Positions 37,822-42,479 of a stretch of DNA of 64,000 bases are shown piece by piece (within the stretch, counting starts at the first letter, position 1; each line of letters begins with the position of its first letter). The notes under the pieces were generated by a model. That model searched no databases, was not told the DNA's origin, and saw only the letters and a program-made list of their open reading frames with translations. This DNA is from Fibrobacter sp. UWEL (GTDB taxonomy: Bacteria; Fibrobacterota; Fibrobacteria; Fibrobacterales; Fibrobacteraceae): assembly GCF_900142535.1 (NCBI RefSeq), contig NZ_FRBE01000001.1:248001-312000 (forward strand), given 5' to 3'. The position numbers were made by a program, and so were the translations under genes.

Positions 37822-38379
37822 CTAGAAGAACATCTTTACGCCGATGCCAATCAGGATAATGCCTGCAATGACTTCGGGAATCTTGGTCTTGAATTTCTTT
37901 GCGGCGCGACGTCCGATCTCAAATCCGATGACGCCCATGACAAAACTTGCGATGGCGATGGCAGAAGTTGCGGTTACCATGTTGGCGTTAATAAAGGCGA
38001 AGGAGATGCCGACAGCAAAGGCGTCGATACTTGTTGCAATGGACATCAGCAGAATGTTTGCGATAGTCAAATTCTTGGAGGCAATTTCTGCGGCTTCGTC
38101 GTCTCCACCACGGACTGCACCCCAGATCATGCGGCCACCCAGAATGCAGAGAATGGCGCAGGCGATGGGCGTACCGATAGATTCAAACCAGCGTTGGGCG
38201 AAGTTCCCCAGGAAGTATCCCAGTAAGGTCATGCCGCCCTGAAAGACGCCGAAGGAAATAGCCTGGATTAAGGCTCTGGAATAGGGGATGCCTTTCTTGG
38301 TGAGACCGGTGGCGATGGAGACCGCGAAACAGTCCATGGCCTCGACAATTGCGATAACGATGATTTCAATAATTCCCAT
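37822..38379 (-). CDS. mntP: MntP-type manganese efflux pump
   Basis: This 185-residue membrane protein of the MntP (DUF204) family exports Mn(II). It has six membrane segments. Key motifs are EAMDCFAVSIATGL (first repeat, Asp16) and SIDAFAVGISFA (second repeat), the paired Asp-containing helices of the family. It sits directly upstream of ligA on the same strand. I saw no yybP-ykoY-type manganese riboswitch upstream. Confidence 0.92.
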   Translation of the reverse strand: MGIIEIIVIAIVEAMDCFAVSIATGLTKKGIPYSRALIQAISFGVFQGGMTLLGYFLGNFAQRWFESIGTPIACAILCILGGRMIWGAVRGGDDEAAEIASKNLTIANILLMSIATSIDAFAVGISFAFINANMVTATSAIAIASFVMGVIGFEIGRRAAKKFKTKIPEVIAGIILIGIGVKMFF

Positions 38380-38490: not shown

Positions 38491-38868
38491 ATGATTGAAA
38501 TGGGTGTGAAATTCAAGCTGGTTTTAGGCGTTTTTATACTGGCAACAGGGCTTTTTGCTCTGGATTTTGCCTTGCCTGAAGTTACGCCTGAATTGAAGAC
38601 TGAGTCCCAGGAATTTTTCCAGAATGAATGTAAGGGCTGCCACAGGTGGGCCCGAAAGTTTGCGGCTCCTCCCATGAAGGATAACGTTCTGCAGTATGCG
38701 GACAAGCCGGAGGAGATGGTAAAGTACTTGATGCATCCTACGCCGAAACATCCCGATGAATGGCCGGCTATGGATATTACCCCCCTGACGGAAATCCAGG
38801 CCAAGAAAATGACTGCCTGGCTGCTTTACATCCTAAAGAATCCCGATGATCCAGGGAGGCCCAAGTGA
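38491..38868 (+). CDS. monoheme cytochrome c (ActE-like)
   Basis: This 125-residue exported protein has a signal peptide/anchor (about 5-24) and one heme c motif CKGCH (about residues 48-52) in a short class-I-like cytochrome fold (AMDITPLTEIQAKKMTAWLLYIL at the end supplies a Met ligand candidate). It heads a five-gene cluster with overlapping genes: its TGA overlaps the GTG of the next gene by 4 bases. A TATATT element and AGGAAG ribosome site precede it. In Alternative Complex III, small monoheme subunits ActE/ActF are typical, which fits the neighbours. Confidence 0.82.
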   Translation: MIEMGVKFKLVLGVFILATGLFALDFALPEVTPELKTESQEFFQNECKGCHRWARKFAAPPMKDNVLQYADKPEEMVKYLMHPTPKHPDEWPAMDITPLTEIQAKKMTAWLLYILKNPDDPGRPK

Positions 38869-39404
38869 AGATTCTTGTGGCGGTTTTCTCCTTGATATTT
38901 GCCTTCCTGCTGGCTGATTTTGTGGTGGGACGTGGTGCGGAACCTTTCCGTACGGGTTTTTCAAATACAAGCGAATCTAAACCTGGCGTGCCCTTTGATC
39001 ACGCACTCCATGGGGATTCCATTGGTCTGGACTGTGCCTCTTGCCATACGGGGAGTCGCTCCCTAGCTAAGGCCTATTTCCCCTCCAAGAAGGACTGTAT
39101 GGATTGCCATCGTTTGCCCTTGACGGAAAATCCGGGGATTGAAACTTTGGATTCTGCCTTGGCCAATGCTCCGGAAAAGCCTTGGTCTAAGAAATCCAAC
39201 TTGCCGGACCATGTGGTCTTCCACCACGGAGTTCATGCTGCGGCGGGTGTAACCTGTGCCAGTTGCCATGGAGACGTGAATAAGAATGTCTATGGTGGTG
39301 AAAAGTTCGATATGAAAACTTGTCTTCAGTGCCATCGGGGCGAAACATTCAAGGATATGGGCTATAAGCCGGCGGCCACTGATTGTGCCACCTGCCATCG
39401 CTAG
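38865..39404 (+). CDS. pentaheme cytochrome c, ActA-like
   Basis: This 179-residue protein has an N-terminal membrane anchor (about 3-22) and five heme motifs: CASCH, CMDCH, CASCH, CLQCH and CATCH. The spacing and surroundings (VPFDHALHG..IGLDCASCHTGS, then LPDHVVFHHGVHAAAGVTCASCHG, then MKTCLQCHRG) follow the ActA subunit of Alternative Complex III, which is also pentaheme. It would carry electrons in the periplasm. The GTG start overlaps the previous stop by 4 bases. No terminal oxidase is encoded nearby. Confidence 0.88.
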   Translation: MKILVAVFSLIFAFLLADFVVGRGAEPFRTGFSNTSESKPGVPFDHALHGDSIGLDCASCHTGSRSLAKAYFPSKKDCMDCHRLPLTENPGIETLDSALANAPEKPWSKKSNLPDHVVFHHGVHAAAGVTCASCHGDVNKNVYGGEKFDMKTCLQCHRGETFKDMGYKPAATDCATCHR

Positions 39405-39412
39405 GTATATTT

Positions 39413-40324
39413 ATGGCAATGGATCGTCGCGATTTCATAAAGTCTTGTTCCTTGATGGCCGTAGCAGGTCTTCTTTTTGGCTGTCGTAAGGATGTGCTGT
39501 CGGAACTGGCTCACGTAGGCGACGTTCCCAGCGTGAAAAAGTTTGAAGAGGAAGTTCGCCAGGCCATGGCAATCGTCCGTAAGGAAATGGACTTAGTGCC
39601 CGTATCCTTCCCGAAGGAACTTTCTCTTTCTGGAAAGACCTGCAAGAATCGTTTTGGCATGGTCATCGACCTGAACGCCTGCGATGGATGTGGCAAGTGC
39701 ATTTTGGCCTGCAACAAGGAAAATAACATCCCTCTGGTTCCCGAGAAGGATGCTGCCGATGGACGCTTTATGCACTGGATTGAAATGCGGGGAAACGCGC
39801 CCTTCATGTGCGCCCACTGCGGTAATGCCCCTTGTGAGAAAGTCTGCCCTACGGGGGCTGCTTCCCATAGCGAAGATGGCTTAAGCACCATGATGTACAA
39901 GCGTTGTGCCGGTTCCAGATTCTGCGGCGCCAACTGCCCCATGCAGGCAAGGAAGTTTAACTTCCACGATAGCAAGGCAATGGGCCTCAGTCGCGTCTTT
40001 AACCCCAAGGTCCCCCTTCGCGATAAGGGCGTCATGGAAAAGTGTTCCCTCTGTCTCCATCGCCTTCAGGATGACCGCATGCGATTCAAGACTGAGTTGT
40101 CCGTTTCCCTGAAGTCCGAAGTTTCTTTGAAGTCCGAGGAATGGCGTGGCCGTGGAGTAAATACCGCTTGTGGGGAGGCCTGTCCCAAGAAGGCCATCAT
40201 TTTCGGGAACTGGCTGGATAAGGAATCTCCCTTAGTAAAGGCCGTAGCCGGACGTACTCTTTATGCACCAAAGAGTCTGGCCTCCTTTGATCCCTCAATT
40301 CTTTTCATTATGGGGCGTCACTAA
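39413..40324 (+). CDS. ActB-type iron-sulfur protein with Tat lipoprotein signal
   Basis: This 303-residue protein has a Tat signal (DRRDFIKS) followed by lipobox LFGC (Cys24). It carries Cys motifs for about four Fe-S clusters: CDGCGKCILAC (90-100), CAHCGNAPCEKVCP, KRCAGSRFCGANCP, EKCSLCLHR and ACGEACPKKA. The RCxGxRxCxxNCP-x-xRxFN pattern is that of ActB/QrcC/PsrB-type proteins. In canonical ActB this domain is fused to a molybdopterin-oxidoreductase-like domain without cofactor; here that domain is absent. Its mature form would be outside the cytoplasmic membrane. The start at 39413 lies 8 bases after the ActA-like stop; TAATG couples it to the next gene. Confidence 0.88.
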   Translation: MAMDRRDFIKSCSLMAVAGLLFGCRKDVLSELAHVGDVPSVKKFEEEVRQAMAIVRKEMDLVPVSFPKELSLSGKTCKNRFGMVIDLNACDGCGKCILACNKENNIPLVPEKDAADGRFMHWIEMRGNAPFMCAHCGNAPCEKVCPTGAASHSEDGLSTMMYKRCAGSRFCGANCPMQARKFNFHDSKAMGLSRVFNPKVPLRDKGVMEKCSLCLHRLQDDRMRFKTELSVSLKSEVSLKSEEWRGRGVNTACGEACPKKAIIFGNWLDKESPLVKAVAGRTLYAPKSLASFDPSILFIMGRH

Positions 40325-42051
40325 TGCTGAAGGTTTTAAGAATCATCGGTTTAGTGTTGCTTATGCCTGGGCTTGCTGCTCTGGGACTTTCTCTCTATGA
40401 AGGACCGGGAAGCTGGTATACGGATTCTCAGACGTTCTGGGGGACTCCTATTGCCCTCTTTGTTTTCTGGATTGGTCTGGCTCATGCCGGAACTTTGCTT
40501 TCTGCCATTTTCCTGGTGTTGAATGTTAGGTTAGACCGTCGTACCGCCATGCTTGCGGAACTGTCCACCTTGTGTTGCCTTGCCTTGGCAGTTCTGTTCC
40601 CCTTGATTCATCTGGGCGTCATCGGGAACTTCTATATGGTAGCTCCCTTTGTGGATGGGCGAGGAGTGTTCCCTAATGCAGGCTCTCCCTTGGTTTGGGA
40701 TTTCTGCTGTATTGCGGTATACGGAATTCTGTCTGCGCTGTTCTTCAACAATCATCTTGCATCCCAGAAAAATCCTGCTTTTGAAAAACTGCGTAGACCT
40801 TTAGCTTGGCTGCTATTGCCCTTGGTCTTGTGGGTCCATTCTGTGGTAAGCCTGGACTTTGCCACCACCTTCGTTCCTAGCTGGCAAGGCGCTTTCTTCC
40901 CCTTCTACTTTGTGGTGGGAGCAGTCTATTCTGGATTGGCCCTGGTGAACGCTTTGCTTTGTGCGGAAGGGTTCCGCGTCCGTATGCTGGAACGTTTGAT
41001 GATGGTTTCATCCTGGATCATCTGCGTCATCTGGTTGTGGATTTTCCTGAGGTCGGGCGAATTCTTTGCTGGAACATTTGTCTTTGCCGGCGTCCTCCCG
41101 CAACTCTATTGGGTTGCTGGCGTTCGCGATCGTCGTCGCGGCCGCCTGCTGATCAGTCTCTCCGTTTTGACTGGCTTATTCCTGGAACGACTTTACCTTG
41201 TTTCTCCGGGCTTTGAAAATATTTCTGCAAGGCTTGGCTGGAACGATTTTGGATTGATTTCTTTCTCTCTCGGTTTCTTCCTTCTGCTCTTTTACGGTCT
41301 GCGAAATTTTGTGGGTAAATATCTGGAAGATTACAATACCTATTTCGGCGAAATGGATGGCAGCGAGATGGAAGCGGATGTGGCCCGAACGGAAAATTTG
41401 GAACAGGTGCAGGATTCCTATGTTCCGCCGTTTTCCTCACCGGAATTTAGGAGCCTTCGTTTGCCTGTTCTGTTTGGCGTTTTGTTGACAATCTTGTTCT
41501 GCATTTGGTGCTTGAATCTGCCTCAAAATAATCTTGAACTAGAAAACCTGTTGCCCTTGACTTATCCCTTGATTGCTTTGGTAGCGGGGTTGTCTCTCTG
41601 GCTGGAAACATCGTTCAAGTTGCAGGTGTCTTCCTGGAAAAAACTTGCCTTGATTTCTGTAGGAGCAATTATGATGGGTGGAGTCGTCGGGATCTTCTAC
41701 GCAGGTTTTCCAACGAGCCCATCTGACGAAAACGTCTCTACCGCAGTCCCACAAGCGCCTTCCATTTCTGGAACGGTAACTCCGGAATCGTCCGCTTTGC
41801 TCTGGAATGCTCGTTGCACCTCCTGTCATGGAACTGATGGAAAGTTGAATGAGAAGTTCGTCCGAGAATTCTATCCCGTACCTACTACACTGACGTTTGA
41901 CCGTCTGAACTCCTTGGGCGATGACTCGCTCTATCAGGTCATTTCCAAGGGACGCGCCAATATGAATTCCTATGAGGGCCGCCTCTCGGAAGATGAAATC
42001 CGCGGTCTTGTTCAGTATATGCGTTCCTTGGCAAAGGAGGTTTCAAGATGA
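40324..42051 (+). CDS. ActC/NrfD-type membrane protein fused to a monoheme cytochrome c
   Basis: This 575-residue protein has about ten membrane segments in its first 335 residues, with ActC/NrfD landmarks: FWIGLAHAGTLLSAI, LFPLIHLG, SPLVWDF, LWVHSVVSLDFA, FFPFYFVVGAVYSGLALV and LLISLSVLTGLFLERLYLV. These line up with ActC, the quinone-site subunit. Two more helices (about 383-440) lead to a periplasmic class-I cytochrome with heme motif CTSCH (Cys498) and a Met ligand candidate in NMNSYEGRLSEDE. The fusion of an ActC-like channel with an ActE-like cytochrome is unusual. ATG overlaps the previous TAA by one base. Confidence 0.85.
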   Translation: MLKVLRIIGLVLLMPGLAALGLSLYEGPGSWYTDSQTFWGTPIALFVFWIGLAHAGTLLSAIFLVLNVRLDRRTAMLAELSTLCCLALAVLFPLIHLGVIGNFYMVAPFVDGRGVFPNAGSPLVWDFCCIAVYGILSALFFNNHLASQKNPAFEKLRRPLAWLLLPLVLWVHSVVSLDFATTFVPSWQGAFFPFYFVVGAVYSGLALVNALLCAEGFRVRMLERLMMVSSWIICVIWLWIFLRSGEFFAGTFVFAGVLPQLYWVAGVRDRRRGRLLISLSVLTGLFLERLYLVSPGFENISARLGWNDFGLISFSLGFFLLLFYGLRNFVGKYLEDYNTYFGEMDGSEMEADVARTENLEQVQDSYVPPFSSPEFRSLRLPVLFGVLLTILFCIWCLNLPQNNLELENLLPLTYPLIALVAGLSLWLETSFKLQVSSWKKLALISVGAIMMGGVVGIFYAGFPTSPSDENVSTAVPQAPSISGTVTPESSALLWNARCTSCHGTDGKLNEKFVREFYPVPTTLTFDRLNSLGDDSLYQVISKGRANMNSYEGRLSEDEIRGLVQYMRSLAKEVSR

Positions 42052-42479
42052 TACCTCTGCTAAACGCGCTTGGATGTCTGCTAGCACTTGGTTGCGCCTA
42101 TTACTTGTGGCGACCGGGTTCTGGACTGTACCGCAATGGTGGCATTCTTGCGGTATCTCTCCTTCTGTTTGTGGTCTTCTCTGCGGCCGCAGGTGACGTG
42201 GAGTATTATCCGTTCCGTCTGTTGGCGTTGTGTCTTTGCTTCTCCACGACTGCACTGACAAAGTCCCGCAGGGCCTTCATCATTCTGGCTCAAATCTTCT
42301 GGTTATGGATTGAGTTGTTTGGAAATGTTTCTCTCTATTACCGAGGGGGCGATTTCAACTGGACTCGTCTAATAGCCATCTTTGGATTGGCTTTGTGCAG
42401 TTCCTTCCTGTCAAGAATCTCGAAGGAGATGGAATTCTGTCTGCTGGTCTTCTGGATTGCCGTCTGGGTTTTCTTCTAG
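42048..42479 (+). CDS. small multi-span membrane protein of the respiratory cluster
   Basis: This 143-residue hydrophobic protein has four to five membrane segments and few charged residues apart from loops (RPGSGLYRNGG, TKSRRAF, YRGGDFNWTR, SKEME). It matches no family I know. Its ATG overlaps the TGA of the ActC-like gene (ATGA), so it belongs to the complex or its assembly. It could be the counterpart of ActF or ActD in other complexes, but there is no sequence resemblance visible. It ends 1 base before the stop of the convergent glycosyltransferase-like gene. Confidence 0.75.
   Translation: MIPLLNALGCLLALGCAYYLWRPGSGLYRNGGILAVSLLLFVVFSAAAGDVEYYPFRLLALCLCFSTTALTKSRRAFIILAQIFWLWIELFGNVSLYYRGGDFNWTRLIAIFGLALCSSFLSRISKEMEFCLLVFWIAVWVFF

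Follow-up and report, generated by a model that had tools for sequence, protein, structure and literature searches.

A compact module of the Alternative Complex III type in Fibrobacter and a clade that has lost its redox part

Members of the genus Fibrobacter are gut anaerobes that degrade fibre in herbivores. Here we describe a five-gene module in a 64,000-nucleotide stretch of the genome of Fibrobacter sp. UWEL (the window, in whose numbering all positions are given). Judged from sequence homology, its first four genes, P1 to P4, probably encode a minimal menaquinol:cytochrome c oxidoreductase of the Alternative Complex III (ACIII) type; the fifth, P5, encodes an orphan membrane protein. The module is optional, and one Fibrobacter clade has lost its entire redox part, a finding that goes beyond an earlier sequence-only reading of the locus. 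Most Fibrobacter genomes carry an intact and selected quinol-to-cytochrome wire with eight hemes. According to a 2016 study of the phylum, major parts of an electron transport chain are missing from the Fibrobacteraceae it investigated, which are therefore unable to respire (PMC4704652); its statement makes no mention of this module.

An open reading frame (ORF) check placed all five genes on the plus strand at 38491-42479, in agreement with the sequence-only reading. The features are as follows.

38491..38868, plus strand: P1, exported monoheme cytochrome c of 125 amino acids with the motif CKGCH (ORF; Pfam Cytochrom_C, 25.2 bits, above cut-off)
38865..39404, plus strand: P2, ActA-like pentaheme cytochrome c of 179 amino acids with a single N-terminal hydrophobic helix (five CxxCH motifs; phmmer)
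39419..40324, plus strand: P3, ActB2-like Fe-S protein of 301 amino acids with a twin-arginine (Tat) and lipobox signal (phmmer; cysteine alignment)
40324..41748, plus strand: P4, N-terminal part, ActC/NrfD-type membrane protein with quinol site and gate (phmmer; residue mapping)
41749..42051, plus strand: P4, C-terminal part, fused ActE-like monoheme cytochrome c following the last transmembrane helix (Pfam Cytochrome_CBB3, 38.4 bits)
42048..42479, plus strand: P5, orphan membrane protein of 143 amino acids immediately 3' of ActC (AlphaFold2 model; synteny)
37822..38379, minus strand: mntP-like neighbour, divergent, outside the system and used as marker of the syntenic site (synteny across loci)

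The overlapping or near-overlapping junctions noted earlier are borne out by the sequence, with overlaps of 4 bases between P1 and P2, 1 base between P3 and P4 (TAATG) and 4 bases between P4 and P5 (ATGA), and a gap of 14 bases between P2 and P3 if the ATG at 39419 is taken as the start of P3. The mechanically assigned TTG start at 39383 was rejected as too early. Heme motifs number one in P1, five in P2 and one in P4. Motifs, Pfam and phmmer agree with the identities first proposed for the five products, namely a monoheme cytochrome, ActA, a Tat-lipoprotein of the ActB type, an ActC/NrfD-cytochrome fusion and a membrane protein. The gene set is not a chance assembly, because the identical order recurs across Fibrobacter genomes and sister genera.

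Among solved structures, the three core proteins match ACIII subunits best, as the sequence-only reading had suspected. Using phmmer, P2 was matched to ActA (8k9e_A, 1.4e-22), P3 to residues 794-1004 of ActB (6f0k_B, 1.1e-44) and P4 to ActC (6f0k_C, 1.4e-29), with an additional match of P4 to ActE (6f0k_E, 0.002). P4 scores above the Pfam NrfD cut-off and ends in a C-terminal cytochrome c; hydropathy identifies helix 441-459 as the last transmembrane helix before this domain. The N terminus of P3 (MDRRDFIK...LLFGC) is a twin-arginine and lipobox signal. P3 aligns with the C-terminal half of the canonical ActB proteins of about 1050 amino acids found in other families of the Fibrobacterota, and both share the Tat/lipobox segment near the start; the ActB1 half of about 700 amino acids is missing from P3. 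Fifteen cysteines of P3 are invariant across compact and canonical homologues, which is the number needed for three [4Fe-4S] clusters and one [3Fe-4S] cluster, assigned here by homology.

In ActC of Rhodothermus marinus the quinol site is formed by H139, S164, D169 and D253, and the gate by R395 (PMC8076601). Through the phmmer alignment these residues map to H96, S121, D126, D178 and the gate R289 of P4. None of the five varies among 45 full Fibrobacter and 6 sister-genus sequences, and 8 homologues from other families have them nearly invariant; therefore the full form keeps the residues for quinol chemistry. The ratio of nonsynonymous to synonymous substitution rates (dN/dS; Nei-Gojobori, pairs with dS 0.05-1.5) has medians of 0.14 for ActA, 0.10 for ActB, 0.154 for ActC and 0.131 for P5 in the full form, indicating purifying selection.

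We compared the module with ACIII (ActABCDEF) of Rhodothermus marinus (6f0k), Flavobacterium (6btm), Roseiflexus (6lod) and Chloroflexus (8k9e). Shared features are the pentaheme ActA, an ActB2 with ligands for three [4Fe-4S] and one [3Fe-4S] cluster, an ActC with full quinol site and gate arginine, and an ActE-type monoheme cytochrome. Unlike in ACIII, this last cytochrome is fused to ActC, and the extra cytochrome P1 and the orphan P5 are present. The absence of the molybdopterin-like half of ActB, claimed earlier, is upheld by the alignment and by tblastn with canonical ActB1, which gave no match in the window or the Fibrobacter loci, a locus-level result, as PF00384 does not detect ActB1. 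For ActD, claimed absent as well, the evidence is inspection of the five genes, none of which is ActD; no ActD search was run. ActF likewise had no tblastn match in the window or the Fibrobacter loci, again at locus level, as Pfam NrfD does not detect ActF. Fused and split forms of ActB are already known (PMC4643136, PMC9386147). We found no description in the accessible literature of a cluster that combines an ActC-cytochrome fusion with an ActB and has no ActB1 at all, which is no proof that none exists.

Within this framework, ActC (P4) would oxidise menaquinol at its periplasmic site and hand the electrons to P3, whose [3Fe-4S] cluster and three [4Fe-4S] clusters would relay them to the five hemes of P2. 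From there the electrons would reach the cytochrome domain tethered to ActC and then the small cytochromes P1 and P6, the latter encoded elsewhere in the genome. Subunit assembly, menaquinol oxidation and its direction, and proton pumping would follow ACIII by analogy. The earlier interpretation of the module is supported, with a function, connecting menaquinol to a periplasmic or extracellular acceptor, that would follow from homology; no acceptor was found.

Acceptors and donors were sought with Pfam-type profiles in 80 Fibrobacter genomes, one per species and many of them metagenome-assembled; control genomes were positive in each search, and divergent enzymes may escape such profiles. The earlier remark that no terminal oxidase lies near extends to the whole sample, in which haem-copper oxidase (COX1) was not detected and no intact bd oxidase was present. 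The sole trace of the latter is a sub-threshold fragment of subunit I with two in-frame stops in genome G126 (contig C25:46410-46667; L079, L115), which belongs to the clade without redox parts; it is possibly a dead remnant. Diheme cytochrome c peroxidase was not detected, and molybdopterin enzymes (PF00384), NiFe hydrogenase and NrfA were not found above cut-off, the four weak NrfA matches being ActA-sized frames at the act locus. In 18 genomes of the genus sub-threshold PF00374 matches were seen, in frames mostly of about 402 amino acids, which we take to be probably NuoD of complex I; this would suggest an NADH dehydrogenase feeding menaquinone in Fibrobacter.

The multiheme c7 family search returned ActA as the sole match in each genome. 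The monoheme search returned the ActC domain, sometimes P1, and one further small cytochrome, P6. P6 is encoded alone and away from the act locus (C6 of the same genome, L090 9439-9882), as a monocistronic exported cytochrome c adjoining a gene for a predicted SGNH-type esterase, with equivalents in L091, L092, L094-L097 and L099. It is probably a soluble partner of the module. The detected c-type inventory, ActA, P1, the ActC domain and P6, thus amounts to eight hemes with no recognised end, and inspection of the neighbours of the cytochrome c assembly gene and of P6 for a reductase revealed no other heme proteins. Because the usual terminal enzymes were not found, the chain might end in a direct chemical or extracellular acceptor, or in an unrecognised enzyme.

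Several points weigh against an ACIII-type oxidoreductase. Neither acceptor nor donor enzyme was found in the 80 genomes, so the direction rests on homology. ActB1, ActD and ActF, usual in ACIII, were not found by the means given above, and the correlation across 17 genomes described below is one observation only. The main rival is that the module runs in reverse, with periplasmic cytochromes passing electrons from an outside donor into menaquinone and on to fumarate reductase, as in Qrc, an ACIII relative that acts as menaquinone reductase (cited in PMC4643136). Like QrcABCD of sulfate reducers, the module joins a multiheme cytochrome, an Fe-S protein and an NrfD-type subunit of the same superfamily; among NCBIfam profiles QrcA ranks first for P2 and QrcC second for P3, and the predicted membrane-bound, menaquinone-linked fumarate reductase of Fibrobacter succinogenes S85 would provide the sink (PMC3079729). 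Unlike QrcABCD, however, the Fibrobacter set has no QrcB-like subunit, and the usual donors, a periplasmic hydrogenase or formate dehydrogenase, were not found: neither molybdopterin enzyme nor NiFe hydrogenase exceeded the cut-off in the genus, and no hydrogenase was found in S85 either (PMC3079729). P3 and P4 clearly match ACIII structures. Since the QrcA and QrcC scores (60.6 of 180 and 132.2 of 400 bits) lie far under cut-off and QrcD gave no match, the module is closer to ACIII than to Qrc. With the donors absent, the reverse direction is disfavoured, and we consider it unlikely.

The Fe-S and NrfD-type proteins might instead be the anchor for a catalytic subunit, encoded elsewhere, of a molybdopterin or nitrite reductase. 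P3 does score against the NrfC, TtrB, DmsB and ArrB profiles, but far under cut-off, and P4 has no strong DsrP and no QrcD match (for DsrMKJOP, DsrO reached 138.8 of 200 and DsrP 19.3 of 350 bits). Unlike NrfABCD and the DMSO-reductase-type molybdoenzymes, Fibrobacter has no catalytic NrfA or PF00384 subunit above cut-off in the 80 genomes. The sequence-only reading had named such a subunit, or absence of the cluster from other Fibrobacter, as grounds for its rejection; the cluster is present in 60 of the 80, and a role as anchor is hardly probable. Modules of the NrfCD type with multiheme cytochromes and no molybdopterin subunit are known from Melioribacter and MBNT15 (PMC3534657, PMC9386147). 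They resemble the present one in leading from an Fe-S and NrfD anchor to c-type hemes without a molybdenum subunit, whereas the Fibrobacter sequences belong to the ACIII branch, have a cytochrome fused to the membrane subunit and include P5. The electrons might also serve to balance the redox state or to scavenge oxygen instead of conserving energy, with the small cytochromes directly reducing ferric iron, humic-like quinones, or traces of oxygen or peroxide. This would agree with the lack of a detected dedicated terminal enzyme and with an inventory of only P1, P6 and the tethered domain besides ActA. We think it quite unlikely as an explanation of its own; it is compatible with an ACIII-type oxidoreductase and mainly specifies its end.

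ActC was found in 77 of the 80 Fibrobacter genomes (the other three are only 62-71% complete), and ActB, with the full operon, in the 60 mentioned. In 17 genomes all that is left at the locus is an ActC of 410-419 amino acids and a P5 of 147, and tblastn revealed no relics of P1-P3 there. This pair stands divergent from mntP in 16 of the 17, the remaining contig being too short; because it occupies the position of the full operon beside mntP, the other parts disappeared in situ. ActB, the cytochrome c assembly protein (PF01578), the c7 cytochrome and the CBB3-type cytochrome occur in none of these 17 genomes. The assembly protein is present in 58 of the 60 full genomes, and the two exceptions are 85% and 71% complete. 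Genomes without ActA and ActB thus also lack the assembly protein and every detected c-type cytochrome, a co-absence to be expected if the module is what the assembly system serves. In a maximum-likelihood tree the stripped ActCs form one clade with 100/100 support, nested in the full Fibrobacter forms, and the stem branch leading to it measures 1.8 changes per column. The loss of the redox part looks like one event, and since a single evolutionary event fits, the joint loss of cytochromes, assembly protein and ActAB is counted as one observation.

The stripped ActC has kept its helices to about P4 residue 427, and the final helix and the cytochrome domain are gone. Its quinol site is altered: H96 is replaced by Tyr in 15/17 and R289 by Cys in 16/17, S121 is deleted in 11/17 and E288 is Lys in all 17, with Asp178 retained in 13 and Asp126 in 9. 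The loss of the site His, Ser and gate Arg in most sequences, together with the long stem, could speak for mere decay of the pair. This is very improbable, however, since the ORFs are intact in 17/17, P5 measures exactly 147 amino acids throughout, the 4-base ActC/P5 overlap is retained and dN/dS of ActC lies between 0.07 and 0.19 (median 0.098; P5, 0.090). We lean slightly towards a redox-free membrane machine under strong purifying selection, in which the NrfD fold and P5 would serve a function such as ion conduction, transport or membrane organisation that is separable from electron transfer and that the full complex probably had already. This clade lost the entire c-type cytochrome branch, and the ActC core and P5 would have been kept for a second, non-redox role. 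In ACIII itself, the NrfD-type subunit ActF also lacks the quinone residues and the gate Arg (PMC8076601). The model of stripped ActC is poor (predicted local distance difference test, pLDDT, 64), and its best structural matches are the NrfD-type chains of ACIII, ActC and ActF. Ion conduction, as proposed for the quinone-free ActF, is therefore a reasonable guess and perhaps the role of the stripped pair. Unlike ActF, the stripped ActC derives from ActC within Fibrobacter, in genomes where neither c-type cytochromes nor ActB are left. Ion movement by NrfD-type subunits is a question in ACIII energetics, and a natural lineage without redox partners makes it directly testable. If the redox-free interpretation is true, the function of the NrfD fold and P5 can be separated from electron transfer.

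P5 matched no family in profile searches. Its AlphaFold2 model (pLDDT 86) has six helices, and eight columns are invariant over 37 sequences. Foldseek gave no significant match, and VIA-align matches were at the level of common helical bundles; the match to ActF (6lod_F; Z 7.9, root-mean-square deviation 3.3 over 142 residues) was among the few spanning the whole model. The idea that P5 is a piece of ActC was rejected, as the profile comparison was negative. P5 and ActC are neighbours in each of the 17 stripped loci, as they are in the inspected full ones. Its conservation and its place behind ActC, in the full and the stripped form alike, most likely make P5 a partner of ActC and not of the redox arm.

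Outside the genus, the compact operon occurs in the same-family genera g5, g6 and g10. Other families of the class carry canonical ACIII, which adjoins cytochrome c oxidase genes in one inspected locus. In addition to the stripped loci, the window, 11 of 25 full loci from named Fibrobacter and a single locus of a sister genus have mntP as a divergent neighbour of the operon. P1 lies upstream of ActA in most Fibrobacter loci and is missing in four loci of the sister genus g6 and in a few near contig ends. At L046:5292-5942 the P1 gene appears shortened. A RelE/YafQ-like toxin ORF comes next on the opposite strand, which gives the impression of a toxin-antitoxin insertion in P1. A separate set in another Fibrobacterota family (L075:8295-12086), with a 315-amino-acid NrfC-like Tat Fe-S protein, an NrfD-type protein and a cytochrome c, is compact as well and not close to the Fibrobacter module. 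In another class of the phylum (L072:3989-12782), an ACIII-like cluster of unusual gene order contains ActB, ActC and ActA together with a diheme protein and a gene resembling haem-copper oxidase.

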